Assembly: GCF_041146795.1 (NCBI RefSeq)
Contig: NC_135176.1
Coordinates: 13,884,286-13,948,285 of the forward strand
DNA: 64,000 bases
Direction: 5' to 3'
Source: Maylandia zebra
Lineage: Eukaryota > Chordata > Actinopteri > Cichliformes > Cichlidae
The notes beneath the pieces were generated by a model, which was given only the letters and a program-made list of their open reading frames with translations, had not been told where the DNA came from and did no database searches. Below, in pieces: positions 10,501-64,000 of the stretch (positions are counted from its first letter, which is position 1; each line of letters starts with the position of its first letter). The position numbers were made by a program, and so were the translations under genes.

Positions 10501-13500
10501 TTTTGGGTAAAGTCCTGGAATGCATCCTGTGCACTTGTACTGACGGGATATCGGACTGCAAACGCATCACATGTCCTACCCAGTACCCTTGCCAACATCC
10601 TATGAAATCAGCGGGAAAGTGCTGCAAGACTTGTCCAGGTAGTCAAACAATACTTTGGCTGTTTATACAGATCTGATGTTGATGGACTGTAAACATCATC
10701 CATTCAACCGCTCTCCTAATTGTTTTCCCCAGAGACTAAAGCTGAAAGTAACCAGACCCAGTGCTATCTCGGACATAAAAATAACCTCTTGGTGTATAAA
10801 GTTGAATCAGCTCTGAATGTTGACTCACCCAACGCAGTTAGGATCATTGCTGTTGAAAGACAAAGTACTGCTGAAGTTGAAGTACAAGTATGGAACACTA
10901 TAGAAGGTACTGCACCCGCTCCTCTGAGCTATATTATAGGAAAAGTTAACATTTTTTTTCAAACGTGCTCATTTTTTCTTGCCGAGTATTAGATGAGAAG
11001 ATTGTGAGCATGTACAGGTTTCCTGACTGTTCAGTATCATCACTCACTTAGCATACAGAGTGGCTTTCATTCATTTTAGAGGTGCTGGTCAGCAGATTCT
11101 CTTACCTGAGCCAAGCTATTTTCTTCATATTTCCAGTCTTTATGAGAGTGTAACTTAACTCCCTCCAATAGACTGTACATAAAAGCTGCACCACTGCTCC
11201 AGCTCTCAGACCTGAACCTCCAGCAGAAGTGCCTTAAATCTAAATTATTAATAACAACTTCTCTGATTTGTACCAAAAACACATGAAAATCTATGAGAAA
11301 AAGAGGGTCTACCTTGTGGTTCAAGCTACCACGTGAGGATGGAGTGCCTTCAGCTTTGGTTTAAAAACAAGACAGCAATAGAAGAAATCCTGAACTTGAG
11401 GCTTTAAATTGGTAGTTCACAAACCCTAAAGTAGCTTTATGGTGGTTACATCCATCTTTGATATACAGCTTAGTCGTACCTTTATATTAAAGATATAGTG
11501 TGTGTCACGACTGTCGTTCTTCTCACCTAACACTTGACAACAGAGCAAAAAAGAATAGAAAGCCAATTAGAACAAAGTGGGAATGCTGTGTAAAATGCAA
11601 ACAAAAACATCATGCTGTGATTTGTCTCATAAACCCATATTTTATTCACAATAGATCACAGAAAGCATCTAAAAGTGAAAACTGAGAAAATGTACAGTTT
11701 TAAGATCAAAATATATTCTTGATGGTCGCAACATGCCTCAAAAAAAGTTGGGACAGGGTAATGTTTGCCAGTGTGTACCACCTCTCTTCTTTTAACGACA
11801 GCCAATAAATGTGTGGACTTTTAAGAGAGGAATCTTGTCCCATTATTGTCCAATATAAAATTATTGCTAAAACAGTCTTCTTTGTTGTATTTTTAATTTC
11901 GTGACACGCCAAATGTTTTCAGTTGGTGAAAGGTCTGGACTGCAGTGGAGTATGCGGTTTAGCATTGTTTTGCCGAGATGCAAGCCTGATGGTGCCTTTC
12001 AAGCTGCCAAACTCATAGCCACTAATGCACCTCTATACCTCTATACTTCAGAGATGCAGGCTTTTGAACTTTTGGACAACAAACCGAGCTCCTCCTGTGT
12101 AGTTCTAAGGATGCGGCATCCATGTTTTCCAAGACAAATTTCTGATTTTGATTCATCTGACCTCAGGACAGTTGTCCACTTTGCCTCGAGAGTTTTAGCC
12201 CAGAGAAGACAGCGATGTGTCTCGATCATGTTCACATGTGGTTTCCTCTTTGCATGACAGAGCTTTGACTTGCATTTGTTGATGGCACAGTGAACTGAGC
12301 TCACGAAGTGATTAATGCAATACCGAAGATCATAGGCTTCCAGTACTGATTTTTGGCCTTTTCCTTTGAGCACGGAAATTTCTTCACATTCTCAGAATCT
12401 TTTGGTGATATTATGTACTAAGATGATGGAATCTTTTAATTTTATACCAAGAAAAATGATTCTGAACTTGCTCCACTATTTGCAGTTTTTGCAGATTAGT
12501 GACTACCTTCAGTTCAATTAGTTGTTTTTATGTAGCACCAAGGTAAAAATGCTGCAATATTAGAAAGACACTCCTACACGTCCCCCTATGGCAAGTGCTT
12601 GGAGACAGTGGCAAGGAAAAACTCCCACTGAGCAGGAAACAGGAAGGGAGATCCATCTCTTGTGATTGGTTGGAAGTGAGGGGAGGGAGAGAGAAACAGA
12701 GTTTCATAACTATTAATGATTAAATGCAGAGTGTTGTATAAACACACAGGGAATGAAAAGAGATGACTATGTCTTAGAAACTCTGCCTTGGCTAGATGCT
12801 CTTTTTACCCAGGCACGTTACTAACCTGTTGCCAATGAATCTAATTAGCTGCAAAACGTTCCTCCAGCTGTTTCCTTTTAGTACAACTTACTTTTCCCAC
12901 CTATTGTTGCTCCTGTTCCAAGTTTTTTGAGACGTGTTGCTACCATCGAATTTAAAAATAAGCTTACTTTTGTAAAATAGTCACATGTTTAAACGTTTAA
13001 TGTTTTTTCTATCGTTCTATGAAAAATACATCATTTAATTCCGTTTTTATTTATTTTTGTTCCCCTCAACTCTTCTGAAATTGGGGTTATAGTTTCCAAA
13101 ATGTGAAAAGCAAGACAAACATACAGCACGGCTGCACCTCTGTGTGATTCTCCTCTGAGTCCTTTATTCTTACAGGCGTTTTGCAATTAATGGAAATTGG
13201 CGACATTCAAAGGAAAGACATTTTGGATCATCCAGAGAACTGCACGTTGCTCACAACACTCGATGAAGGTTTGTTTTTTGAAGCGACTGATTTATGTGGC
13301 AGATTTGGAAATCATTATTTTAGACTTATCTTACTGTGATTTTGTGTGTGTGTGTATCAGGTTTACATCAGTTCTCATTTATTTTTCAGAGACATGGAGA
13401 AAATTTAAAGAGGAAGGAGAAAATCTGAGTAAAGCTCCTCAGACCACGATTTGTGAAGATGGCATTCGGGAGATTGTGACTTTCCTAAATCCTAAGCAAA

Positions 13501-19968: not shown

Positions 19969-21074
19969 AGGTCAGAAATATTAATGCATGCCTGCAATGG
20001 CAATAAACTATTAAAGACAGATCGCAGCGGGGTGGAATACCCCACCACCCCCCACCTCGAAATAAGTGTCAACTTTACAGTTATGATCTATAATTAACAA
20101 TGGCCTCTTTTCAAATGTCAGCCAGAATATCTGAAGCCTTTCCAGGATTACATGATAAGTGTGTTACAGTTCAATTGTCCATCAAAGGAAATAATGAATA
20201 GGTTCAGTCCGCAGTGAGCTCATTTGGCACTTGAGTAATGAGGAGTGTTGATGAGGTATTCAGGCCTATTCTTTCCGAGCCAAATCTGGTGTTTGAGTCT
20301 CCACAGGGTTATCCTCAAAGCTTAACTGTTGGCCCTCAGTTTGAGAGTCAAACAAACCTTACCCAAACATTTCTCAGGCTTGATTGCTGTGACGACTGCT
20401 CCAGATGTGAAGCTGTGCCGCGTTGAGACGTACAGAAAAGAGACGTATAAATATGTAAACAGATGTGCCGTGCCTAAGACATCAGCGCCTTTCTTCGCCA
20501 TGTCTTTTGTTATTTTTCTTTTTGCGTTTGGACAGAGTATCCGACTCCCCTGCCAGACTCTGTTATATCACCAAGAGCGCGGATGAAATGTGTTTTCAGT
20601 TATTAACTCAACTCATCAGTTTTTCATCGTAACATCAAAGAGGTTACAGAAGAAGTCGCTTTTATGTGTTTATTCTGCGGTTAATGTTAATGTGAGGAAA
20701 AATCCAATGAAAACAGAGAGAAACAGGGTTCTCTATTGGCTTTGGTCTGCAATCTAAAGTAAAACTAGCTTTGTGTGTATTACAATAAGCTATGTGGACT
20801 ATGTCTCCAGTCTTGAACATAGACATATGTTTTCCAGCTCCTTATTTATAAAGTTGGACCCTGCTATAGGAGTGTTGCATGAGTCACAGTGCTGAATAAT
20901 GGTTTTTAGTTTGTTCTGGGCCTTAGGGCAGCATCTCACTCAAACCACTGTGTGAAACTGGCTTTTGAGACCACCCTCCCTTTTAAGCTAGCTTCATGCC
21001 TGGCTTCCACTTTTAAAGAGAGCTTAAACAGCATGTAGGAGGGACTTTAACATAGAGATGAAGGTATACCTTCA

Positions 21075-21077
<3 letters not shown>
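19969..21077. other. no gene recognised
   Basis: Intergenic sequence with one C-rich patch (about 20029-20060). No repeat family or coding signal I can name. Confidence 0.4.

Positions 21078-21120
<43 letters not shown>
21078..21120. repeat. AT microsatellite next to the hAT-like element
   Basis: About 40 bases of alternating TA abut the left end of the inserted element, which makes its target duplication hard to read. Confidence 0.9.
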
Positions 21121-21125
<5 letters not shown>

Positions 21126-21235
21126 TAGGGGTGCAACGATATTCGTATCGATATTGAACCGTTCGATACAGTGCTTTCGGTTCGGTACGCATATGTATCG
21201 AACAATACAAAATTTGTAATTTATTTTATCAACTA

Positions 21236-21357
21236 TCCTTCTGACGATGCTGTCTGTGTTGAGCGCTCAGTGAATCTGCGTTCGACTACTCCGCCTAGGC
21301 TGCACTGTCGAGCGCAGATCCACTGAGCGCTCAACACAGACAGCATCGTCAGAAGGA
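21236..21357. repeat. long hairpin with 50-base arms
   Basis: Left arm 21236-21285 and right arm 21308-21357 are inverted copies that differ at two bases; the outer 37 bases pair perfectly. The loop is 22 bases (21286-21307). It lies just inside the left end of the hAT-like element. Confidence 0.95.
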
Positions 21358-22406
21358 AGAGCGCAGGGCAAGCTAGCGAGACAGAAGTTAAGCTCTCCTT
21401 GCAACATGGCAAATTGAGCCTCCCCCACCTTCATTCAGATCTGGCGTTTGGAATTATTTTGGTTTTCATGTGACGTATGACCCTGAAGGTAAGCGCGTCA
21501 TGGACTAAAGTAAAACAGTATGTTGGATGTGCCACGCAATGCTTAATTACATGGGTGGGAACTAGTGTGTTAGCGCAGTTAGCTTGTTAACGTGTTGGCC
21601 GTCCAGCCCCACGCACGGGCGATCCGCGGTAGCTCGTTAACGGAGATTTGCCGTGTTGTGGCGTTAATGTCATTTCAACGAGATTTACGCTGACAGCACT
21701 AGTGGGAACGCAACGAATATGACTGCACATTTACTCCGACATCATCCTAGTGCAAAGACAAGTGGAAGCAGACAAAAACAACAAGCACGCATGCTACAAA
21801 CTTTACCCGAGTCGTTTAGACAGCCGTTAGCACATGATTCTCCTTATGGGGACCTGATATGTTTAATATGCTGCTGAGAATATAGCCCAGAAGAAGCGTA
21901 TAGTATAGCTTTTATTTTGGAAAGAGACATTTCTCTGTAATAAACTCTCTTTTCCAAAGATGAGTGATTCCTCAATCAGATACAGGGCTCGCAAAATCGC
22001 CTGCCCAACGTCCCGGGGCTAGCGATTTTTCCAGTCGGGCTACCAAAATCTATCTCCGCCCTGCCCATCGGCTTATCGTAGGAAGGAAAAATATATGTCA
22101 ATGCTTTTGCATTCTTTCGGAAATGTAGCTGGGTAATTATGTCATTGGCATCGGTGAGCCACTGTCAATATGTGACATATTGAAATCGCGTTTGAATTTG
22201 CGCTTGTTTTTTGCTTTCACTTTGCAATCGTGCGAACTGTGTATAGAGAGCGACAGCACTGATCTGTGAGTGATGATAATTTGCGCACCAATTCCTCTGA
22301 CATCGTCTTATTAATCGTTAGCTTACTATGCAAACATGACAAGTGAACTCACCCGCAGCAAGCTTAAACATGTGAGAGGTTGATCGCGCAGAGAATCGCT
22401 GACCGT

Positions 22407-22408
<2 letters not shown>

Positions 22409-22451
<43 letters not shown>
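22409..22451. repeat. TG microsatellite
   Basis: About 21 TG units inside the hAT-like element. Confidence 0.95.
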
Positions 22452-22455
<4 letters not shown>

Positions 22456-22735
22456 GCAGCAGGATATATATTTTAGTTCTGCTGAGCCAAATAAGACAGG
22501 TCAGGGTGAAGAAGTGACAGCCAAAGAAAAGCTTACCACAAAACGGAAAAGTTATGACAAATCAGACTATAAGGCAAAAAGAAAGTGCAGCTTTATGGTT
22601 TCATGGACAAAATAATTTCTGTGGCTGCAATATGACGAGCTAAATAACCAGGGGTGCACATAAGTGGTCCGCAGGTGCGCATTCGCTGTCAAAATAAAAA
22701 ACGCGCACAAGATAAGAAGTTGCAATGCGTGTTTG

Positions 22736-24317
22736 TGTCACGGGGTGGAGAGGGACAAGTTACCTAAGATATTTTTATTGTGCATGTTTGGTTGTGTTTT
22801 ACTTTCTTTAATATTGTATAGTGTTGTATTCTTATGGGTTTTATTGCATGTTTTATGGTATTCATCGGTGACTTGTCCTGGAAAGTCTCCGCCCTCCTTG
22901 ATTATGAACCCAACACACCTGTGAGGTCCCGGAGGCCAATAAGAGTGATGGGAGACGAGAGAGAAGACACTGATGGTGGAGTGAGGACTGGGAGAGTGAA
23001 CGGTATCAGGCGGTGGCGGCGGCCACAAGCCCAGACGGGCTGGTGCCGCTTGGTTTGCCACAGGAAAGCGGTGGCAGAGTTGAGAGCTCTGCCCATTCGG
23101 GAAACCGGAACAGAAACATTGATAGGGCGGCGAGACGCCGCCGGGTTTTCCCTTGGCGGCTCCACTGCTCAATCCGTCTGGAGGAAGGTTTCCTTCCTTC
23201 GCACAAAACCACTGTGGAAGTAGAATCAGCCTTCCGCCTCCGTTACATAATTGGCGTCGTCGACAGAATCCGGTCAAGAGCAGTTGGGGTAGCTGAGGGA
23301 ATAGCAACTTTGATGATGTATGTGTATTCTGGTGCCCCGGTATTTTTGAAGTTTAAAGGGTTAGACAAAAGAAGAAGGATGGATTGTTGGAGCCAAAGCC
23401 AAGGACCCCTGAGCAGATGGGTATGGATAATGTGCGCAGGTATGAGTGTTGCCCACAAGAAGAGTAAATGAGGAACTTTCGACCGAGGTTGCCATGGGAG
23501 GTCAGCTGCAGGGTTGCAGGAAGTGGGGTTATGGGTTGCTGCTAGGCAGCAGTGCTTGGGATGAAGCATGAAGCCCAGGTTAGGCCTGGAAGTATCCCCA
23601 CAGTGGCAGCGAGGTGCAGCTTAGGACCTAATGGTTTCCGGGTAGCTATGCTATGGAATGCGAAATGGTTCGCTTGTTGTGGAACTGGACAGAATGGCGC
23701 ACTTTGTATTTTTCCTTGGGGGCCGAACAAAAAAGAAAGAAACCAGACTCCAAGAAGGTTGCAGGACCGCAAGTTGGGCCTTAGCAGGGACTGCTAATAT
23801 TTTAGTGTGGGGGGATGTCACGGGGTGGAGAGGGACAAGTTACCTAAGATATTTTTATTGTGCATGTTTGGTTGTGTTTTACTTTCTTTAATATTGTATA
23901 GTGTTGTATTCTTATGGGTTTTATTGCATGTTTTATGGTATTCATCGGTGACTTGTCCTGGAAAGTCTCCGCCCCTCCTTGATTATGAACCCAACACACC
24001 TGTGAGGTCCCGGAGGCCAATAAGAGTGATGGGAGACGAGAGAGAAGACACTGATGGTGGAGTGAGGACTGGGAGAGTGAACGGTATCAGGCGGTGGCGG
24101 CGGCCACAAGCCCAGACGGGCTGGTGCTGCTTGGTTTGCCACAGGAAAGCGGTGGCAGAGTTGAGAGCTCTGCCCATTCGGGAAACCGGAACAGAAACAT
24201 TGATAGGGCGGCGAGACGCCGCCGGGTTTTCCCACTGCTCAATCCGTCTGGAGGAAGGTTTCCTTCCTTCGCACAAAACCACTGTGGAAGTAGAATCAGC
24301 CTTCCGCCTCCGTTACA
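22736..24317 (+). mobile_element. LTR retrotransposon fossil, Gypsy-like, non-coding
   Basis: Two direct long terminal repeats, 22736-23247 (512 bases) and 23816-24317 (502 bases), begin TGTCACGGGG and end CCGTTACA. A 568-base inner part lies between them (23248-23815). It starts with ATTGGCGTCGTCGACAG, a primer-binding-site-like stretch, and ends in a purine run GTGGGGGGA, a typical polypurine tract. TTTG flanks both sides as a probable 4-base target duplication. The two LTRs are almost identical, so the insertion looks young. The inner part is far too short for gag and pol, so the copy is broken or was always a passenger that depended on a relative. Family assignment is inferred from end structure only. 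Confidence 0.8.
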
Positions 24318-24959
24318 TTTGCGTACATAAGATTTTCTGGAGGAGGACCGACATTTGTTTAGAACTCTTAAAGATGTCGAAGAAGCTCCTTTAAGCAATT
24401 ACTGTGATGTTCCTCCACCTCCAAAGAAATGTCAGGAGTCCGAACCACAAAAGAAGCACGTATTTTCGGAAAAGTAGTTGCAGGAGGTGAGCTGGCTTCA
24501 AACAAATGATGAACGCACAGAGATGTGGTGCGGAATGTGCCGTGAAAATTTAATAAATGACAAATTAAAAAGGCATGAACATTTTTTTCTGTATCGAAAA
24601 AATATCGAACCGAACCGTGAATTTTGTGTATCGTTGCACCCCTAATATATAGGTATACTATCATGCAGAACTAAAAGTCCAAGCATCTAGACTGCTCTGG
24701 CGTCTATTTACTGTTGTGCAAAAAACAGAAGGTGTAGACATTCCCAAAACTCTACATGTTAAGACCTATTACAAAAAGATTTAGTCCTTCATAGGTTCTA
24801 AAATTAATTAAAGAAAATCTCAGATGAACATCAATATGAATCAATATTTATTTGTCACAAACTAAGTGAAAAAGAAGGCGCTCTGTGGGGAAAAACAAAG
24901 TAGGCCTACAGCCAGTTATTCAGTAGCCTGTAGCCTTTAGCAATAACTAAAAGGAATTG

Positions 24960-25425: not shown

Positions 25426-27266
25426 TGCATATGTGGTAGAAAATAAAGAGAAGCATAAGAGGTCCTCTTTTAAGCACCCCCATGAGGCGTCTACAAGTAA
25501 ATCAATTATATATGACAACAAAAAATAATGCTCATGATATCACATTGATGTCATCGAGGTTATTTATGCTGGGAATGTGGGGTTTAAGTGCAAACTGGGT
25601 AAATTGCATTTTGGGAAGTGTAGGATCCAGAGGTTTTGAAGCCATTCGTACCACAGGGCCTTTACAGCTTTGTGTCCTGCATCTGTCATTATTTATTGAC
25701 ATAGCTGATAAATATAAAAACATCTGTTAGTATAAAACATCCCTTTGTATTGCATTCTTGGGGTATTTTGGGGTACTGTTTATGTCTATATAAAGCAACT
25801 GCTCACACTGAAACTGTGTTGGCAGATTCAAGCACAACTGGCTGTGATTAATTACTCATCGACTGATCAGACTCAAAGGGGAATTTGTAGTTGCTTTGGT
25901 AGTTATCCTTCTGACTTTTTCCTGATAACAGATTCTTTTAGAATTGCAGAAGGAGCCTGAGGTAACAGCATGAAGCCAGGATTCATCGCCTGCACAACGG
26001 TAATGCGGGAAAAGAAATGATCAGATTCATCTGCTTTATTAATTACATAATCTAAAATTTTCACATGTTGGCACAAACACAAACAAAGAAAAGGAAGGTG
26101 TATGTCCCAAAAGAGCTGGTGAAAAAAGTGGAAGGTTTACCAACTAAGTGCATCTGAGTTATTTTTTCACAATCTCGTGAAGAGTTCTTGGAGAGATCTC
26201 CAAGTTTGTGATGAGGTCAGTAAACGCCTAGAGTGTACTTGGAATAGACAGCCATCAGAGGGACTGATTATTCCCAAAAATGTGGAAAACTAACATGTGT
26301 AACAAACCTCTTGCACAAGAGTACATGTCTATTTTTCTTCCAGCATTAAAGAATTACAACATGACAGCACTGGACTGCAAGTACTAATCATTATCATTTC
26401 TAAATTACTTTGTAACAGCAATCTGGTCAAACAAAATAAGTTCATGCTAGGACTTCCTGGCTGCAGAACAAAATCCATAATGTTAGTGAAAGCAACAACA
26501 AGTCTCAGGGCACTTTAATGGAGTCGCACCCAAGCCTGGATAGGGAGTAAAAGTGCAATTTGAGAGTCAATAATGAAAACAATCTGATCATTTATAATCT
26601 ATTTAGCATCGAGGATTTTCAGCAGCTGTTGTGTCCAATACTGTGGAATATCGCTGCAGCTCAGACAAGCTCGGCTGTGTGGAGCTGAGCTCCACTGGAC
26701 TGGAAAAGAGTATTTCTGTAGAAGGGTGTCTCTGCCATTTGGCACAGGCTCCTCATTACCAGCAAAAATATAGTTAAGGATGAAAAGACCTGAACAAGGC
26801 CATCAGACTGGAGACCAGGTGTTTGCCTGATAGCACTGAGCAGCACTGTACCGATTGTTTTCACTGTGTCAAACTGTTCATCCATCAAGACTAACTTTTT
26901 AGTGAAAAAATAATAGAACACTGCTTTAAACTAATTACAATGCTGAAAGTTGTTTATCGCTAAGATTTGTGTGACACCACAATGACAGCGATTCTCATGC
27001 TAGAGCTCAGTGATTGATTTCATTAAAACATATCACTGGAACCCAATGCTGACTCTTCCACACACAAAACTAAAAGAGTTCCTTCTGCATGCACTCCATT
27101 GCTATGGTGAGCAGCTACTGTAATTTTTTTCACTGTTTTTATTATTAGGCATGTTTCCCGGGGGCAAGGTTTCAGAAATTCACAGTAGTTATACAACACA
27201 ACCACAACACCATGTTAAAGCAGCGCACGCCCAATCATGCAGACACCCCGGTTTCAATAACTAAGC
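25426..27266. other. no gene recognised
   Basis: Intergenic sequence. The block near 26100-26290 is mildly reminiscent of transposon DNA, but I cannot place it. Confidence 0.4.
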
Positions 27267-28239
27267 ACTATCTTCTGTTGTCAAAGGAGCTTGCAAAGAA
27301 AAGCGTCTGGACTTCTTTAAGTTACTTGAAGACGTTTCACCTCTCATCCGAGAAGCTTCCACCAGCGAGGGAGGATAAGAAGGACAGACGCAACAACATT
27401 GTCATCCCCTATGTAGCCGGTGTATCAGAAAAACTCAGGAGGGTTTTCTCCAAGCATGACATCCCGGTGCATTTCAGACCCAGCAACACGCTCAGACAAA
27501 AACTGGTTCACCCGAAAGACAAAACGCCAAAACACAGACTTAACAATGTGGTGTATGCTGTACAGTGCAGCGAGGAATGCCCAGACCTCTACATTGGAGA
27601 GACCAAGCAGCCACTTCACAAGCGCATGGCACAACACAGAAGAGCCACCTCCACAGGACAAGACTCAGCAGTCCATCTGCATCTTAAGGATAAAGGACAC
27701 TCTCTCAAGGATGCCAATGTTCACATTTTGGACAGAGAGGACAGATGGTTTGAAAGAGGAGTGAAAGAAGCCATCTATGTCCACTGTGAGCGACCATCTT
27801 TGAACAGAGGCGGGGGTTTACGACACCAACTCTCTGCCATCTATAATCCAGTTTTGAGATCCCTTCCCAGACGCCTTAACGCCCACTCACATCCTGGGCC
27901 ATCTGATCTCAGGAATTCGCATGATAAGGTGGGGCCAGGTTTCACAATGAACTCACCCGAAACTCTGGCTGATTGGGACCCACACCCAATTTCACACCTT
28001 GGCTCAGGCGATTAGAGGATCATCAGGGGGTCCTTTTGTCCCTCTGTGGGGGGAAACTCCCACTAGGTTTATATCTGGGACTCTCCACCATTTGACCTTA
28101 GATCTGAAGAAGCTTCTCGGATGAGAGGTGAAACGTCTTCAAGTAACTTAAAGAAGTCCAGACGCTTTTCTTTGCAAGCTCCTTTGACTACGATGACCTG
28201 GATGACTGAGAACCTTCACAGACATACTATCTTCTGTTG
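27267..28239 (+). mobile_element. Penelope-like element, 5'-truncated, GIY-YIG endonuclease end
   Basis: The element itself is 27281-28225. A 14-base target duplication (ACTATCTTCTGTTG) flanks it at 27267-27280 and 28226-28239. Inverted 80-base copies lie at 27280-27359 and 28109-28188, a common feature of Penelope terminal repeats. An open frame from about 27281 to 28015 encodes the C-terminal GIY-YIG nuclease: NNVVYAVQCSEECPDLYIGE carries the YAV/YIG core, and later blocks RMAQHRRA, HILDREDRWFERGVKEAIYV and PSLNRGGGLRHQLS fit the Neptune/Penelope nuclease. The reverse transcriptase part is missing, so it cannot move alone. Confidence 0.9.
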
Positions 28240-36335: not shown

Positions 36336-37676
36336 ATGGGAAACACGTCGTCGAAGGGAGACAGCGGAGAAGAACCTCCTAAAACAACTTTGTTTGAAAG
36401 GGAGCCAAGTGGGATAACATACAGAATCCCTGCTCTCGTCTATCTGAGGCACTGTCACACCTTCCTCGCCTTTGCAGAGAAGAGATCCTCACCCTGTGAC
36501 AATGACGCCAAAATTTTCGTTATGAGGAGAGGCACCCTGAAAGAGGATGGATCCATGCAGGTTACCATTGCCACATGATCACTTTGATTTTCATAGTTGA
36601 AGTTAACATGATTTGTTGTCCTCTTTTCAAATGTTGCCTTTGTCATGTTTCTGGGATTTTGTTTTTTTTTCCAGTGGTCGTCCAGTCAGGAGCTGTCTTC
36701 GGTGTGCCTGCCAAACCACCGCACTATGAATCCTTGCCCGGTGTATGAAAAAAACACCAAAACGCTCTATTTGTTTTTCATCTGTGTGTGGGGCACAACC
36801 ACGGAAGCGAAGCAGATCCTGACAGGTAAGAACAAGACTCGTCTTTGCTACGTCAGCAGCCGAGACGACGGCCAGACTTGGAGCCAAGTGACAGACTTAA
36901 CTGACAGCGTGATCGGCGAGGCCATTCACAAGTGGGCCACATTCGCCGTGGGCCCCGGCCACGGTGTTCAGCTTGAGAACGGCCGACTGATCATCCCTGC
37001 GTACGCCTACTACATTCCTTACAGATGCTGCTCCTTCCCCATCCCTTGCACAGTCTACCCACGTGCACTGTCAGTATATAGCGAGGACTTTGGACAGACG
37101 TGGCACATAGGTAAGATGCTGCGGAAGAAGTCGTGCGAATGTGAAATGGCCGAGATCATAGACCACGAGGGCAGGAGCCACCTCTACTGCAATGCTCGTA
37201 ATGCCGGGGGCCACAGGTGTGAGGCTCTCAGTGAAAACAGCGGCGTCTACTTCGACAAGCCCCACATGGCCCCGGAGCTGGTGGAAACGCGCTACGGATG
37301 TCAGGGAAGCATCATCGGCTTTCCCGCGCCGGAATTTGTCCCAAACGACGACGCGGAAAGCAAAGCCTGCGGCACATCGCTCCTGTCACCAGACACGCAA
37401 ACCTGGCTCCTCTTCATGCACCCGACGAGCAAGTCCAGAAGAAGGGACATGGGTGTGTATTTGAACCGATCCCCCCTGCACTCATCCGGATGGGACAGAC
37501 CCAGGATCATCCACAGGGGGCCCAGCGGCTACTCGGACCTGGCTTACAACGGGGACAAGGATCAGTTTTCGTGCCTGATGGAGTGCGGGAAAGAGAGTGA
37601 ACTCGAGCAGATTGCCTTCGTGTCGTTCTCCCTTAATGATGTCATGCAGACAGGCGGCAGGAAAGAAAAGCGTTGA
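36336..37676 (+). CDS. neu3: sialidase-3, ganglioside sialidase
   Basis: Two coding exons, 36336-36560 and 36675-37676, total 1227 bases and 408 aa (human NEU3 is 428 aa). The enzyme removes terminal sialic acid, chiefly from gangliosides at the plasma membrane. The six-bladed propeller marks are visible: the arginine motif YRIP at residues 29-32 (usual form FRIP/YRIP), the acid/base Asp at about residue 55 in SSPCDNDA, and Asp boxes SRDDGQTW (137-144) and SEDFGQTW (211-218). The second exon also has VGPGHGVQLENGRLIIPAYA, a strongly conserved block. The long second exon is typical of NEU2/NEU3/NEU4. Gly2 and the following Asn-Thr-Ser-Ser (MGNTSS) form a good N-myristoylation site, which would fit membrane attachment. 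NEU3 over NEU2/4 is favoured by neighbours CHRDL2 and XRRA1. Confidence 0.92.
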
Positions 37677-46800: not shown

Positions 46801-49800
46801 TCATTTTATATCAAAGTTCTGCCAGCTGTGCGCTAAGTTTCACCTCAGCTAATTTGAGTCATTGAGTGAGAGATCCCCACAGTATCTATGGTGATGTTGT
46901 GGTCCAGCTCCAAATGACCCATTTTCTATTTTAAATTGTCAGTTTAAAGTCAAGCTGCAGAAAAATATTTATCCAATGTCTTCTCCTCTCACCGCCAACC
47001 AGTTGTGGCAGATGGCTGTCCCTCCCTGAGTCTGTTTCTGCTGAAAGTTTCTTCCTGTTAAATGGTAGTTTTTCCTTCCCACTGTCGCCAAAGCACTTGC
47101 TCTGTTCGTCTTCTCCGTATTATTGTAGGGTATTTAACTTTCAAAATAAAATGCCCCGAGGCAACTGATGTGTGATCTGTTGAATTTTCTATAAATATAA
47201 CTGAACTGAAATTTATTTAAATTGCTTTCAACTGGACCAGAATAACCCCTTATTTGGTTTACACTTTGCAAATACATGAGTAGACTGTACCTTCAATAAT
47301 GTGCTTTCTGGAGAGTCCTCTCTCTGTCTCTGCCCTGTGAAGTTGTGAAAATACAAATCATTGATCCTCAGTTAAAATGATGAAGAGGCTGGGTTGAAGA
47401 AATGTGAAGAGTCTAGTGTTTTAGTCTTATACTTACTGGCCTCCCCAGTAGATTTTTGTCGTAATGACAAAACTTGAACGTCTGGCAAGGACAGGAGTCG
47501 TGAGTATTTTGATTGCAGCATAACATTTAAGTTAAGGGAATCAGCTCATCCTAAATCTAATAGTACGGACAGTCTTTCTCTCTTTCTGGTGTTAAAATTA
47601 AAACATTTTATTACCAATATGTGTCTCTTAGGCAGCTGGGTGAGTCAGCCACCATCTCTGATCAGGGAATTTAACATTTTTATCCTTTTTAGTCTCTCTG
47701 AGGATAAAGCTCTACATTTTTTCCCCAAGCATGGCTTTCCCTTGAGAGAATTTAATGGTGTGCCGCTATCAAAAGTAATAAAAACATGTAGTAATGCATT
47801 TCATCTCAGGAAGGGATTATTAGGGATTATTTAAAGTAAATCTGTGATCTGGTCGAGTTAAAAAGGTTTGCATGCCTGTGAGTCAGTTAGGAAGAATGAG
47901 TAATCTCACCTCCAACCTTTCTTCTTGATGATGTTCCCTAGAGTAATTTCCGCCCTGTGGAGAAACACATCATTGGTTGTGACGGGCTGAGGCTAATAAA
48001 CTTTATTTGTATGTAACGTTTAACGAGATAAATAAATGATAAAGACACGCAGACCAAAGAAAACCAGATTAATGTAGAGAAGAAGAATGGAAAACGGCAG
48101 ACAATAAAAGACGACGTCACATAAAAACAGGTTTAAATTTTTGTATTTGCTGTGAGAGAAATCAGACGATTTAAAAAAAAAAAAAGTTTAATTGAGGCTC
48201 AGGAGAGGAAAGTGAAGTCTGACCTTCCAGAGGCGTACACCTCCGCTGTGTCAAACAGGTTCACTCCGTTCTCATAAGCTACGGTCATCAGGTTCTCCGC
48301 CATCTGAGAGAACACAAAAACTGAGACTGAGAGAAGCAGACGGCGGATAAATTCCAATTACCCAGAGGTCGTTCATGAAGGGCACTACTCAGGGAGGATA
48401 ATACAGACAATATCTCGCCAAGCTACAGCAGTCTTAAGGCCTGTCACACATATTCCTGCGATCGTGAACACTGAGATTTGTTTACAGTGCGCCGAACGGT
48501 GTTACACAAAAACCAAACGAGTGAAGGTGTGCGGGAATCGATTTCTCATACAAACACAGAGAGAGAATGCTCACTTCATCAGAGATCTGCGATCCAAATG
48601 TCACCCAGGTGCCTGAACAAGGAGAGAGAGGGAGAGACAGACAGACGGATTTTATTTAAGAGTTTGAAGCTGAGCTGAATGTTTCCCTGCCTTCATCCCA
48701 ACTTACCTAACCCGAGACAGGAAACACGTAGGCCCGATTTTCCCAGGTTCCTATAGAAAGGGGAAAAATCAGGAGGTTAGATGAGAAATGCCTGTAAAGC
48801 GCACACACACACAAAATGTGTGGGCAGTTGGAATATATCTGGACATACAATCTTCAAACACAGTCAGTAAGATGTACGCATGTGAGTGATGAGCAATCCT
48901 CAGTAGGGAGACACTGTGGTTAAGCAGTGATGAGACTAAGAGATACCTAAGTGGAGTTTAAAAAAGATGGCAGCTGCAATGTTACACTGTATTTAACACA
49001 CATTTTGTCTTATTTGTTTCTACCCAAGCCTCCGAGCCATCTGAAGTAGTTTCGGTTTATTAATAATCACATCCACTCACAACTACATTACAGCGTTATA
49101 AACTATTTATTCACGTCTATGAGGGAGCTGGCTCACTGCTTTACTGGACACATCAGGATTTGAAAGCTAAACGTCGCCTTAATATGGCGATGTTGTTGAT
49201 GAGATCCTGATTATTCTGTAGCAGCATGTAACACAAACCTGGTGTCACATGTAAAACATAAGTACGACACAAAATTAAAAACCAGACACAGATGTAATTT
49301 ATTTCTATCGTAGTCTCCGACACTTCACTCCTCCACTGCAGCTGCTGAGTGAAAGTCTTTCTCGCCTCTGGTAAAATGACTTCCTCTGTCTAATTATTTC
49401 TGAACAATTGACCTTTCATCCCTCGTATGTTAGCAGTTCAGTGTATTACAGTGGGCCAGTGAAACACCTGGAGGGGACGGAGCTCAGCGCAGTTAGAGAG
49501 TCCTGGCAAAAGCTTCTTTGGTCTGCACCATAAATGGCTCAAAAATGCTCTGTGAGCTAAAGAGGAGTCCATTAACTGACATGCCACATCTGATTATTCA
49601 GACAGCTGAATTTTGAAGGGCAGGCGGGGGAGAAGCAGAGAGCTGCATTTCTGACCACAGGAGCATGTACAGCTGAAAATGATGTGGGCTTCATGCTTTG
49701 CTCTCCTGTGTGCTCTCCCCCATTCTAATTAGCCGGGGAGCCAGCTGGAGAGCCGGCAGAACTGCAGTGCACCTCGCTGCTCGCCGTCTTTTCATCTCCA

Positions 49801-56600: not shown

Positions 56601-58191
56601 TGCCAATGGCAACTGGAAGTGGCCATATGCTGTATAGACTTATTGTGCTGCTGCACTCCCTATTAGTGACACTTTTTTAGAGACGACAGAACAACTGGAA
56701 AAATCCAGCCCAATCATAAAGTCCTGTATGTGTGTGATTCTAAAGGGAAAAAATAGGAGTGGAAATATCCTAGTTTTGTCCTGTGCCTTATTCCCTTTTT
56801 AAGCATCTTATTAAGTGGAAACTAAATTGACTGAAGAGAATGGCAGCAATTCAATCAACCTGATTACCAAGAAACCAGGTCGTTAAAACTCTCCTCCTAG
56901 TTCTCGAATTTTACAGCCCAAAGATGGAAACACAGTGTGAGCCTGTGGAAGTCTGCAGCCTAATGTTAAAGTGCATGCTTTGTGCTTTCCCCCCCTTTTT
57001 TAAAAAAAATGTATGTTTATGTATAAATACGAGCCTCCTTCATGCATGAGCTGTGCATGAACAGCTGTCCTTGTTTAGCTTCAAGCTCTAATCCATCAAA
57101 GGTAAACCACAAGTTTGCCAACAAACTAAAAGAGGAAAAACATACATTGCATTCTTGTCTTGTTGTTTATCTGGTTGGATTTCCTTCCTACTTTATGACT
57201 CAGACCTGGTGTGTGTGCAGCAGAGATTTTCTGTGCATACGATGGTCTCCTGCAAGGCTATTTTATGAAAGTACATGTGTTTAAAACCTCTAAGAAAAGC
57301 CGGGCGTCCTAGTGTGGTTTCAGGAGAAGCTGTTATTGGAGGAAAGCTTTTTTTGTATTATTAATCTGCTGAAATGAGAAAGAGGCTAACGCAAAGTCTG
57401 TGGCTAATGCTCCCATATGCATACTGTCTGAAATATTGTGATAGCATTAGGGCTATATAGTATGACTTATGTAAGCATTTTTTTATTTATATCCATAAGC
57501 GCTTTTAGGAATAAATGTCATATTTTTGTAATGTCAGCGAAGTCATTGCTCTCACTGAGGTGTTTCTCATCTGGCTAATGGATATGTAGGCAGTCTGCAC
57601 AGTCTGCTCACTGGTGATATGTTTGGTGACAAGCTAACCTCGAATTCACCTCACATCTCAGCAAAGAGACTGGCAGAACTAGGAATAATGAAGGCCCGGC
57701 AAGGCAGGTAGAGCCTCATTGTGAAGAAGAGGCCCAACACCTTGTTTCTGGTGGAGGACTTTCACCTCTGGTGGAGGTCAAAAGGCCACAGTGATCAGAG
57801 CGAAATAAAAGCCATCTCTCCAACCAATAAAGCTCCGGCTCCTCGTCTCCCCCAGTCAGGCTCATACTCACCTGTACTTCATATTGGTGTGGCGCCCAAT
57901 AGCCTCCTTCATGTGGGCGTGACCCTGAGGAGTCTGACGAGACCCGGAACCCTCCCTGGTCTTGACAGAACCTTGAGACATGTAGTTGCCATTGCTCCCT
58001 TGTCCACTGCTTCCACCTCCGCTTCCTCCTCCACCACCACCACCACCTCCACTTCCTCCTCCTCCACCGCCACCACCTCCCCCTACTCCGCCACTGCTCC
58101 CTCCAGGAGGTGGAGCGGTGCGAAGGCCACAAAGCCGGTCCTCGCTGCGACTTTTGAGGTTGTGCTCAGTGCATGCAAAAGACACCTGCAT
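43858..58191 (-). CDS. kcnab3: voltage-gated K+ channel beta-3 subunit
   Basis: Fourteen coding exons, 5' to 3': 57872-58191, 48707-48750, 48575-48612, 48224-48303, 47910-47954, 47437-47481, 47291-47334, 45476-45562, 45237-45322, 45001-45121, 44816-44910, 44584-44704, 44061-44149, 43858-43947; 1305 bases, 434 aa, all phases agreeing. It is a cytosolic aldo-keto-reductase-like subunit that sits under Shaker-type Kv channels and tunes gating and surface delivery. The AKR tetrad is complete: Asp152, Tyr157, Lys185, Asn225. [15 protein letters not shown] opens the conserved core. Beta-3 is shown by the N terminus [20 protein letters not shown] and the C terminus [20 protein letters not shown], both like human KCNAB3 and unlike KCNAB1/2. 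The first exon encodes a Gly/Ser run at residues 30-63. The first intron is 9.1 kb. An alternative first exon lies upstream at 62654-62949. Confidence 0.96.
46736..46773. repeat. 38-base perfect palindrome in a KCNAB3 intron
   Basis: GCAGAAGTGCCACAAACTG and its exact complement meet at a central PstI-type CTGCAG with no loop. It lies in the intron between the exons at 45476-45562 and 47291-47334, followed by a T run. Confidence 0.95.
46975..47215 (+). repeat. L2-type LINE 3' tail
   Basis: AGTTTCTTCCTGTTAAATGG, CCCACTGTCGCCAAAGCACT and the ending ATAAATATAACTGAACTGAA are a common fish LINE tail. The complement of the same sequence occurs at 12530-12760. It lies antisense in a KCNAB3 intron, ending about 75 bases from an exon. 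Confidence 0.7.
48751..57871 (-). other. KCNAB3 intron 1 (long)
   Basis: 9.1 kb without any further coding exon I can support. It holds an (AAAT) microsatellite at 53651-53687 and several low-AT blocks (about 49700-49860 and 53850-54180) that could be regulatory. Long open frames here have no recognisable domain. Confidence 0.55.
53651..53687. repeat. AAAT microsatellite
   Basis: About nine AAAT units in KCNAB3 intron 1. Confidence 0.95.
58003..58104 (-). repeat. glycine/serine codon repeat in KCNAB3 exon 1
   Basis: About 34 codons that are nearly all Gly or Ser (residues 30-63). The plus strand reads as CCX-rich triplets. Human KCNAB3 also has a Gly-rich run here, but it is shorter in my recollection. 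Confidence 0.85.
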
Positions 58192-61100: not shown

Positions 61101-62653
61101 AAAAGAGGACAGAATTCCTTTGATATAATCCATGAAGATTCACACATGTTCGAATCTGTCTGACCTATTAGCTTCGTTTCATTCGGCCCTCGTTGTCTGT
61201 TTTTCAGAATCTAAATAGCTCACATTTCTGCAGCTCAAATGTTTGCAGCTAAACCGGGAAAACGAGAAAGAACGTCAAGGTAGATGCTGGCTTCTGTTTT
61301 GATTACAGGTAATCATTTTCTGTCAGGAGGGAGTCCAGATCTCATGCAAATGAAGGCGCACAGAGGCTGTGGAAACAACTTCCACTGGAGGCTCTGTGGG
61401 GCAGTTCAAGTGATGGAAGCGGTTCTGCCAGAGGTGGTCGAATCAACTGAATCATACTCTGGTACGCCGTTAGTTTGTTTCAGCTATCAAAATGTACGCT
61501 GCCAGTACAAATGTGCTATAAAGTAAGTCCTAGATCTGAGCATAAAAATGATGTGAAATTGCAAATGATACCCCTTGGCCTGCACTATTGTCCCTCTTTC
61601 TGCTTTTGAGTCATTGGTCACAGACTTGTCTTCACACCATGATGACGCTGCCACCTAGAGGCAACTGTGCTGGAGACTAGATGACTGTGTTTGCATGTTT
61701 TGGATGTGTTATAGCAAATAAAATGACAAATGTAATGGAATCTGTACTCAGTATTTTAGTATGATGGTGTTTAAGCAGTAATAATGAAATATGCAGCAGC
61801 CTGGCCTGTATCTTCCTCTTCTCTGCAAGCACCCCACCCCTCCTTTTTTCAGGTCTCATTCAATTTACAAAAATCTATTTTTCCCTAGGTTTTTGGTAAA
61901 CTGATTGAAGAGTAGCCAACACCACCGTTCATTCGCCTCCACACTTTAAACAGAGAGATGCACGCGGTACAACAACCAACCGCCCGTCCCCCGCTGTCAA
62001 ATCATGCATCATTAACCCCAAACTTCTGCACCACTGATGCCTGACCCCGTCAGGCTGTTTTTTGGAAAGGCTGGAATTAGACAATGGCTCACGTACAACT
62101 CACATTAGCGTTCCTGAACAACCGGATGCTTCTGCAGTCCGGCCACGTACACTCATCAGTCCTCTGCATTGAAATCTCATCAAACGCCTGATGTTTCTTT
62201 TTAGGTCACCAGTGAGAAAAAAACAACAAAAAAACAAAAAATAATAATATTTTTTTTCCCCCATCTCTCGTGAATGATGTCTCCACTCACTGCCTTTCAA
62301 TTGCAGTCCTCTCCAAACACTCAATTACATCAACGCATTAGTAATATGTTAGAAAAATATTAACCATGTTATTAAAATGGATCATCCACGGATGGCTGAG
62401 TGCTCGGGATGGTCTCTTATTATCTCTGTAAAATCCAGACATTCAGTGTGAGTCCTGCACTCGCTAAAAAAGCAGCCGAAACCCAGAACGGAGTTAAATC
62501 TGCAGCCTTGTGTAGGCTGTACATTCCAGTTCTTTATTATTAATAATTGCTTTTATTTATTTTTTTTTTTAGTGGCCTAATTAAATGTACTAAGTCATAA
62601 CTACAAACTCTAACTGCCTCATGGTTTCATGCTGTAAAGTCTTCTCCTCATAC
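58192..62653 (-). other. region between the two KCNAB3 first exons
   Basis: 4.5 kb holding the promoter of the beta-3 first exon and, further right, no coding exon that I can support. Simple runs occur at 58920-58947 (poly-A) and 59334-59351 (poly-C). A GC-rich patch near 59100-59350 could be the start site region. A CTCF-like site lies at 61648-61663. Confidence 0.5.
61648..61663 (-). promoter_or_regulatory. CTCF-like site between KCNAB3 first exons
   Basis: GCTGCCACCTAGAGGCA contains the reverse CTCF core GCCACCTAGAGG, one base off consensus. It lies between the two alternative first exons. Confidence 0.4.
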
Positions 62654-62949
62654 CTGTACGGCATTGCAGAGCGCTCAGCCTCGCACTCAGCCAGGGAGAG
62701 GCCACATTCTCTCAGGTACAGCTCCAGCCGGCGTCGCTCCACCAGTCTGTGGGCTGCCTCCAGGATCTGAGAGGCCAAGGCCTCTGACTCAGTCTTCTGT
62801 TCCGAGCTCTTGCTGCTCCGGGTCCCAGCCTTGGCCACAATACTCCCTGAGGAGGTCGACGCCTTGGGCTTCTTACTGATGCCATAGAGGTCCTCCACGG
62901 AGTATTTCCCCCCCTTACCTCCTCCGCTGCCACCACGGCTGGCAAACAT
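62654..62949 (-). CDS. kcnab3: alternative first exon of KCNAB3, Kv-beta1-like N terminus
   Basis: A 296-base coding exon starting at ATG 62949 and ending at donor CAG|GTATGAG. It ends in phase 2 (MPY plus AG), exactly like the known first exon at 57872-58191 (MKY plus AG), so both would splice to the core exon at 48707-48750 to give Arg-Asn-Leu-Gly. The isoform would be 426 aa. The last part, ELYLRECGLSLAECEAE then SAMPYR, lines up with the end of the Kv-beta1.1 first exon as I recall it (a WYLKLCDLSS-like stretch ending MPHR). An in-frame stop three codons before the ATG fixes the start. The first 50 residues are Gly, Ser and Lys rich with no acidic bulk, as a tethered inactivation particle might be. 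Assignment is by phase, position and similarity; no transcript seen. Confidence 0.8.
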
Positions 62950-63555
62950 TGTTGCCTAGATTCCAGCACCCCGACTGATGAAATGGCTCTTCGATTCTGC
63001 TTTGCTTACTTTTTCTTTCTTTTTTTTTTTGCCTGCTACATCTACTTTAAACAAAAGCTGCTTCTAAGTTTGAAACAAAATAACAAGGCAGTGCTATTTT
63101 GATGGAGTTTCATGTAGATTTGAAGCATCCGGCCCGAGGATGTGTCAGACATCAAACTGCTGGAAAGGAGAACTTAAAGCACCTGCGAAATATTTTAAAA
63201 AAAGTCTTGATTTCTCCTTTGTGGAGCCTAATTCCAAAATAAAACAAAGCCAGTTCGACATGTCAGCAGCAACACCCAGTCACAAACAATGACTCCTGCT
63301 GATGTGAGGTGCGTCTTTGAGTAAAAATGGATAGGAAAAGCAATCAGTATCTTTCTCTCTTTATCTCTCAAAGGAAGGACAGTGGGGGGATTTGTGTCGA
63401 AGCACCACCAGCTTACATTTGCTCAGATTAAGAGCGCACCCGGATGAAGTGTCTGTTCTTCTGTGACTATAATCAGCGGCGGCTGTGAGAGTTCAGCTCG
63501 CTGACCTTTTTCTTCAGATATAAATTAATAATGACTTTTTTTTTGTTTTTCATAC
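62950..63555 (-). other. upstream flank of the alternative first exon
   Basis: Holds the putative promoter of the 62654-62949 exon. A T run at about 63018-63030 is the only simple repeat. Nothing else is recognised. Confidence 0.4.
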
Positions 63556-63737
63556 CTGCGTGGCTATAATTGATCAGTTGATCTGCAGCGGCGCTGTCAT
63601 CATAACCAGCACCCTTGCTGCCATCGAGCCCTCGGTCCCTCAAACAAAGCGAGGGTGGCATCCTCTCAAAGCCTGGCTTCAGGCCACTGCTGAGCGTGAT
63701 ATTGTCGGGGTCTGGGTTAATGCGCGAGCCAAACCTC
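63556..63737 (-). other. unassigned exon-like block
   Basis: A minus-strand open frame with a good donor (CACGCAG|GTATGA at 63556/63555) and a possible acceptor (CTGTCGCAG|GAGG at 63737). It would encode about 60 residues including RINPDPDNITLSSGLKP, PPSLCLRDRGLDGSKGAG and YDDSAAADQLINYSHA. I do not recognise the family. The donor phase does not let this frame join the KCNAB3 core, and it cannot read into the 62654 exon, so it is either a 5' UTR exon of KCNAB3, an exon of a gene beyond the window, or chance. Confidence 0.3.
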
Positions 63738-64000
63738 CTGCGACAGTTTTTCACACAAACCATAAAGCAGAGCACAATGTGTGAAACCCTTTTTCACTGG
63801 AGGGGAAAGAAAAATCAGCGGCTACTGGTGCCCTGTTCATAAAAAATTAAACATAAAAAAGGGCAGGTCATCTTTTGTGCACTAAAATGAAATTGAACTG
63901 CTGAAAAGAGAAATACAGACAGACAGAAAGCGTGCAGTTTTAAAGAATGATGATGCAGATAGAGAGGATTAGTTCTCTCCATCAGCTTTTCGACAGTTTG

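Follow-up and report, generated by a model that had tools for sequence, protein, structure and literature searches.

The window, by which we mean the whole stretch of 64,000 nucleotides that was analysed, carries on its minus strand a Kv-beta gene with two alternative first coding exons, and the upstream one is, when all of the evidence is taken together, best explained as an alternative first coding exon of fish kcnab3, probably the counterpart of KCNAB1 exon 1.3, that would give the shared core another N terminus. We refer to the two exons by the residues with which they begin (MFAS upstream, MQVS downstream), and to the MFAS exon together with its relative in a duplicate gene (MFAG, on contig C23) as MFAx. 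The features on which the argument rests are the following:

62956..62958, minus strand: in-frame TAG, nine bases ahead of the ATG of the MFAS exon, read from the sequence
62654..62949, minus strand: upstream alternative first coding exon (the MFAS exon), with an open frame and coding conservation in the C23 duplicate
62648..62653, minus strand: splice donor of the MFAS exon, CAG/GTATGA, donor score 8.4, with CAG/GTGACA at the equivalent spot in the C23 copy
57872..58191, minus strand: downstream alternative first coding exon (the MQVS exon), a Kv-beta1.1/Kv-beta3.1-type ball of 106 residues plus AG, with donor CAG/GTGAGT
48707..48750, minus strand: exon 2, with the acceptor shared by the MFAS and MQVS exons, starting with a split Arg codon
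43858..48612, minus strand: exons 3 to 14, the aldo-keto reductase core, twelve in all, with AG/GT splice borders and a stop closing the final exon

Two first coding exons on one core

Read on the minus strand from 62949 to 62654, the MFAS exon comprises 98 codons plus AG with no stop and is followed by GTATGAG; its protein, MFASRGGSGGGKGGKYSVEDLYGISKKPKAS...LELYLRECGLSLAECEAERSAMPY, reads MFASRGG...AMPY and is in phase 2 at the splice donor. Because of the upstream TAG the start is fixed if translation begins within the exon, and the base at -3 of the ATG is an A, making this start Kozak-like. The G+C content at codon positions 1, 2 and 3 is 0.57, 0.54 and 0.72 (0.42 for the window as a whole). 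The MFAS donor scores lower than that of the MQVS exon (12.0) on the same donor matrix. We use "first coding exon" as the safer term, since a non-coding leader exon may precede MFAS and MFAG: a good acceptor-like stretch (tttatcatttcag) lies directly before the MFAG ATG on C23, and there is a donor-like site above MFAS. The latter (CAG/GTATGA at 63556/63555) falls in an open frame at 63473-63793 on the minus strand, which may be a leader exon or chance; as another first coding exon this frame was rejected, as its phase-2 frame stops just before the donor and Pfam returned no match, leaving it a leader at most.

The MQVS exon, from 58191 to 57872, terminates in ATGAAGTACAG/GTGAGT, its last residues being NMKY plus AG, again in phase 2. 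Its scores against human Kv-beta1.1 and against human KCNAB3 were each equalled by 0/2000 shuffles, and by its sequence it is the Kv-beta1.1-type ball of the window gene. Within this exon (57868-58191, minus strand) there is a long glycine tract; the C23 copy has a short one, at another place. The sequence-only reading, which had described two first exons 4.5 kb apart with the same phase and the same MxYR junction, was right as to both coordinates and joint, the gap being 4,462 bp and the exon 2 acceptor at 48750 (ctatag/G) filling the split Arg codon of either exon. The joined frames are open up to a single stop over 427 (MFAS) and 435 (MQVS) positions, stop included, and the gene core comprises 13 exons down to 43858 with every join AG/GT.

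We scanned the minus strand between 48760 and 64000 for frames of 25 residues or longer that start with ATG and reach a donor in phase 2, and obtained nine candidate first exons, of which only two, MFAS and MQVS, end in MxY plus AG. When the sequence was resampled 300 times under a first-order Markov model, candidates of 98 residues or longer averaged 0.093 per resample, with no MxY plus AG ending among them. The MFAS segment is almost certainly a genuine coding exon.

The duplicate on C23 and the identity of the gene

A search of the fish's own genome (962 Mb) with MFAS returned four matches, one being the window itself. The strong second match (C23:394940-395176, 52% identity, E-value 3.5e-16) is to the MFAG exon, MFAGRASAAGAAG...LASQILEAARRLMERRRLEIYLKECDITMEQRDMQY plus AG/GTGACA, which reads MFAGRAS...DMQY and is in phase 2; the remaining two (E-values of 0.09 and 3.6) contain stops and lie away from kcnab genes. 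Further down the same strand lie the MQVS exon of C23, at 391625-391414, and its thirteen exons of the core, at 386297-376995, with AG/GT borders throughout, and the exon order (MFAx, MQVS, core) is identical in the window and on C23, where MFAG lies 3.3 kb above MQVS. The sequence-only reading had named absence of the frame from related fish as a point against it; the frame is in fact conserved in a relative, this duplicate, which belongs to the same fish and not to another species. About 55 kb below the C23 gene, at C23:322231-322522 (minus strand), a pair of fragments resembles exons 11 and 12 of the core, perhaps a partial copy.

MFAS and MFAG share 50 of 90 aligned residues, and the third position holds 51 of the 104 codon-position mismatches. 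For this pair pS is 0.685 and pN 0.294, with a bootstrap median pN/pS of 0.43 (95% range 0.30–0.58; values of 1 or more in 0/1000 replicates). The two cores are identical at 285/328 residues (pS 0.736, saturated; pN 0.088), and the MQVS pair gave a pS of 0.684 and a pN of 0.356 over 68 codons. When 4 kb of flank was compared with 6 kb by blastn, the exon aligned (window 62691-62930, E-value 3e-24) and the sole further match was of 38 bases in reverse orientation (E-value 0.01). The MFAx exon is under purifying selection at the protein level, and because its pN/pS is well below 1 while synonymous sites are saturated, we regard it as an old exon that has been retained as coding since the genes split. 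Apart from the kcnab exons, the open reading frames that matched between the window and C23 proved to be repeats common to both. One of these, at window 21028-24670, recurs in C23:365001-375000 with translated identity reaching 100%; it is a recently dispersed element close to each of the kcnab3 copies.

The ~328-residue aldo-keto reductase core matched Kv-beta2 in the PDB with an E-value below 1e-180 (the query was a core joined by eye, one residue unlike the final exon-joined core), and on this similarity the window gene is a member of the Kv-beta (KCNAB, AKR6A) family. Overall core sequence alone does not settle that it is kcnab3, identity to human KCNAB1 (259/328) and KCNAB3 (258/324) being equal and that to Kv-beta2, in the sequence matched in the PDB, 254/328. 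KCNAB1 and KCNAB2 share a residue that sets them apart from KCNAB3 at 48 sites; the window has the KCNAB3 residue at 15 of these and the KCNAB1/2 residue at 22, and it carries 4/15 KCNAB1-private and 2/17 KCNAB2-private residues. The MQVS and C-terminal exons fit KCNAB3, the latter with 80.8% identity to KCNAB3 versus 50% to KCNAB1. An unrooted tree of 140 columns separated the KCNAB1/KCNAB2 type from KCNAB3, the window and C23 with 62% support, and one of the full core joined the window and C23 with 99%. A trappc1 gene lies at C23:399949-400491 (E-value 3.2e-40), 4.7 kb above the MFAG exon; since KCNAB3 and TRAPPC1 adjoin in a cattle gene list (PMC7764440), we take the C23 gene to be kcnab3 and the window gene to be its duplicate.

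The trappc1 neighbourhood is absent from the window, where the neighbours are an EPHB4-like kinase above and a sialidase gene below. The kinase exon is at L033:5008-5421 (minus strand), ~15 kb above the window end, with EPHB4 chains first among its PDB matches and EphB2 close. The sialidase-like exon at 36612-37673 (plus strand; Pfam BNR_2, E-value 2.6e-34) we presume to be neu3. A von Willebrand type C domain exon at 10332-10673 (plus strand, E-value 1.9e-11) perhaps belongs to a chordin-like gene. The frame at 27149-28012 (plus strand) resembles a mobile element, with a weak GIY-YIG match below the Pfam cut-off (E-value 0.0085) and similar pieces on C23.

Predicted properties of the two N termini

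Kv-beta proteins are described as joining a conserved core to a variable N terminus, 70–90 residues long, which in some of them blocks the open pore (PMC13031570). Kv-beta1.3 is among the blockers, and its Arg5 is a reported PIP2 contact (PMC3456799, through which Decher 2008 is also cited here), the PIP2 effect not having been reproduced in one study cited in that paper. In the arrangement that we propose, transcripts starting at position 62949 or upstream of it would splice 62654 to 48750 and encode a Kv-beta3 with a different N terminus on the common core, and those from the lower promoter would encode the MQVS (ball) form. We infer that both first exons are transcribed in the animal.

AlphaFold2 applied to the MFAS exon alone, as a single sequence, gave a mean pLDDT of 74 and a pTM of 0.36, with a loose first half, helices at 49–82 and 86–95, and a block of pLDDT 84–97 over residues 51–90. 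Residues 1 to ~48 may accordingly be pictured as a flexible basic tail that keeps the MFAxR start and is carried by the long helix 49–82 leading into the core; this tail could reach into an open Kv1 channel through its inner mouth and produce N-type block. We put the chances about even that the MFAS form, judged by its sequence, gives fast inactivation. The reading that competes most closely is that the MFAx N terminus is translated and does not block, serving instead in targeting, phosphorylation or assembly and giving a non-inactivating, Kv-beta2-like Kv-beta3, which we consider possible and somewhat the less probable. It would account for the finding that the best-kept parts of the MFAx pair (SVE[DE]LYG[IF]SKKPK and the helix) are inner and not at the extreme N terminus, and that the Gly/Ser/Ala-rich first 20 residues are strongly divergent between MFAS and MFAG. 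However, MFAxR is retained in both copies, with Arg5 kept in MFAS, and the net charge of the first 40 residues is +5 in MFAS and +4 in MFAG. A positive net charge is usual for inactivation tails.

The blocking reading also makes a prediction about regulation. Kv-beta1.1, Kv-beta1.2 and Kv-beta3.1 have Cys or His in their N termini and their inactivation is slowed by hemin, whereas Kv-beta1.3, whose N terminus is without Cys and His, gives hemin-insensitive inactivation (PMC7239824). Ahead of residue 67 MFAS is free of Cys and His, as is MFAG ahead of residue 88; in the window, the MQVS form retains C7 and H10. Because its distal part is free of these residues, the MFAS form should be redox- and heme-insensitive, unlike the MQVS form. 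This freedom from Cys and His is not a rule of the 1.3 type, since the fish 1.3 exon on C14 has five His. Promoter choice would, on this account, switch Kv-beta3 between a redox/heme-regulated gate (MQVS) and an unregulated one (MFAS).

The hint in the sequence-only reading that Kv-beta3 would owe fast N-type inactivation to the new exon alone does not hold. KCNAB3 with KCNA5 produces a very fast inactivating current (Leicher 1998, cited in PMC5429088), and Kv-beta3.1 accelerates the inactivation of Kv1.4 (PMC7239824), so an inactivation ball is already established for human Kv-beta3.1. Kcnab3 has also been put forward as a marker and channel candidate of fish (paddlefish) electroreceptors (PMC5429088).

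Relationship to the KCNAB1 first exons and the layout of the family

We compared the MFAx exons with human and fish KCNAB1 first exons by a shuffle test in which the last four, junction, residues were cut from both sequences, with 4000 shuffles. The closest relationships were to exon 1.3: only 1/4000 shuffles scored as well for MFAS against the fish kcnab1 1.3 exon (C14), and likewise 1/4000 for MFAG against human 1.3, with 60/4000 for MFAS against human 1.3 and 95/4000 for MFAG against fish 1.3. Against human 1.2 the values were 26/4000 for MFAS and 2416/4000 for MFAG. A tblastn search of the window with the human 1.3 N terminus had MFAS as its best match, end to end (E-value 0.007; the next listed 0.97). 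An HMM of two 1.3 exons scored MFAS at 22.8 and one of the fish 1.1 exons at 20.4 bits, with MFAG outside the best 14 rows, and in a smaller, earlier test an MFAx profile scored human 1.3 at 15.8 bits, human 1.1 at 7.6 and human 1.2 at 5.8 (top of 2000 shuffles, 8.5). An hhalign comparison with the 1.3 profile aligned no more than 20 columns, those next to the junction, with a probability of 60. A separate 1.2-type exon in the window was sought and rejected, the best match of the 1.2 query being the MFAS tail itself (E-value 0.017; next 0.045). Outside this genome, 63 pattern matches in viral contigs and 596 in prokaryote contigs yielded no confirmed relative.

By these comparisons MFAS appears closest to KCNAB1 exon 1.3, with a match that is moderate and uneven, and descent of the MFAx exon from a 1.3-type exon, as the KCNAB3 counterpart of KCNAB1 exon 1.3, is likely, not proven. 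That MFAx is a coding exon of its own lineage, which arose in KCNAB3 independently and has nothing in common with exon 1.3 but the phase-2 MxYR junction and a basic make-up rich in Gly, Ser and Lys, seems unlikely to us, although it would explain the unevenness of the 1.3 match between MFAS and MFAG, the lack of any 1.3 counterpart to the two blocks best preserved in the pair, SVE[DE]LYG[IF]SKKPK and ASQILEAA, and the outcome of a genome search with human 1.3, which returned the C14 exon and neither the window nor the C23 exon. Against independent origin stand the position of MFAx upstream of MQVS, as in KCNAB1, the shared phase, the resemblance of the MFAxR start to MLAAR, and the two shuffle results of 1/4000. 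A chance open frame or a dead exon with no role is strongly disfavoured and very improbable: it has in its favour one weak donor base pattern (GTATGA), and against it the conservation of frame, start, junction and donor in the C23 duplicate, with the substitution pattern given above, and the rarity of such frames among the resamples.

Least probable of all is that the upstream exon is the Kv-beta1.1 inactivation-ball exon. The sequence-only reading had found the end of MFAS close to the Kv-beta1.1 exon, and with the junction kept only 13/2000 shuffles beat MFAS against human 1.1, the MxYR end and phase being in common; yet once the junction residues are cut the score falls to the shuffle mean, with 1951/4000 shuffles doing as well against human 1.1 and 2437/4000 against fish 1.1 (1995/4000 for MFAG against human 1.1). 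We rejected the Kv-beta1.1 identity on these tests and because the 1.1-type exon of the window gene is MQVS. Of the proposed comparison with KCNAB1 first exons there stands a moderate, uneven likeness to 1.3, and none to 1.1 beyond the junction.

Matches to the kcnab core in this genome numbered 33, on C10 (the window), C23, C14, C18, C5 and C20. By the exons compared, C14 and C18 are nearest to KCNAB1 (each with one exon that is tied or almost tied) and C5 to KCNAB2; C20 is likewise nearest to KCNAB2, narrowly and on a single exon. MQVS-type exons were found at 5/6 of these loci (C14, C18, C5, C10 and C23) with none among the matches listed at C20, and 1.3-type or MFAx exons at C14, C10 and C23. 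The C14 kcnab1 1.3 exon (MLAARSSGGG...TNWYLK...GMLYR) lies 51 kb above the C14 MQVS exon. Since the exon pair is shared with the C23 duplicate, in the same order, and 1.3 stands above MQVS on C14, the ancestral alternative-promoter layout, one of two options offered by the sequence-only reading, is favoured. From the distribution of 1.3 and MQVS exons over the loci of this one genome we infer a fit to an ancestral gene with both exons. As a tentative scenario, to which we give slightly less than even chances, a single KCNAB gene before the vertebrate KCNAB1/2/3 split would have had 1.3-type and 1.1-type first exons, both of them kept by the fish kcnab3 duplicates, the ball only by mammalian KCNAB3, and the ball by one fish kcnab2, with promoter choice in fish switching Kv-beta3 between a heme/redox-sensitive and a heme/redox-insensitive gate.

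The kcnab2 exon in question, at C5:25090821-25091033 (minus strand), is of the MQVS type and encodes a Kv-beta1.1-type ball with 53% identity to human 1.1; it ends in phase 2 with donor AG/GTAGGG, and exon 2 of the gene lies 14.4 kb below, at C5:25076386. The C5 core between the ball exon and the exon 2 locus is Kv-beta2-like. As Kv-beta2 is described as having no inactivation peptide (PMC7239824), a ball-bearing form of it in fish would count as a separate finding.

KCNAB1 is reported to have three alternative first exons, those of mouse being ordered 1.3-1.2-1.1, with 1.3 lying 169 kb and 1.2 lying 132 kb above 1.1 (PMC6509479). For mammalian KCNAB3 a 2026 review names Kv-beta3.1 only (PMC13031570), and on this basis a Kv-beta3 with a 1.3-like start appears to be new. 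Among literature titles and abstract openings we found no second KCNAB3 first exon, the terms KCNAB1, KCNAB3 and "first exon" co-occurring in PMC6103258; automatic annotation of fish genomes may already predict the isoform. If fish Kv-beta3 does have two N termini, probes and knock-outs built on the MQVS exon would cover only half of it, and the alternative-promoter design of the family would predate the three-gene split and have been trimmed later in mammals.

Set beside the known first exons, MFAx is like KCNAB1 exon 1.3 in being the most upstream first coding exon with a phase-2 MxYR-type junction, in its M-[FL]-A-x-R start and basic tail, and, in both forms, in having no Cys or His in the distal part, as in human 1.3. 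It differs in belonging to KCNAB3, in carrying the insert block SVE[DE]LYG[IF]SKKPK that is missing from 1.3, and in its distance above the MQVS exon, 4.5 kb in the window and 3.3 kb on C23 versus 51 kb for the 1.3 exon of C14 kcnab1 and 169 kb above the 1.1 exon in mouse Kcnab1 (PMC6509479). The MFAS tail, GLSLAE...MPYR, also resembles that of Kv-beta1.2, GISLQE...MAYR; however, the C23 copy shows no such likeness, and the distal half of 1.2 with its Cys/His motifs is unmatched. With the Kv-beta1.1/Kv-beta3.1 ball exon, MFAS has the gene, the phase and the junction in common, and no similarity beyond that junction.
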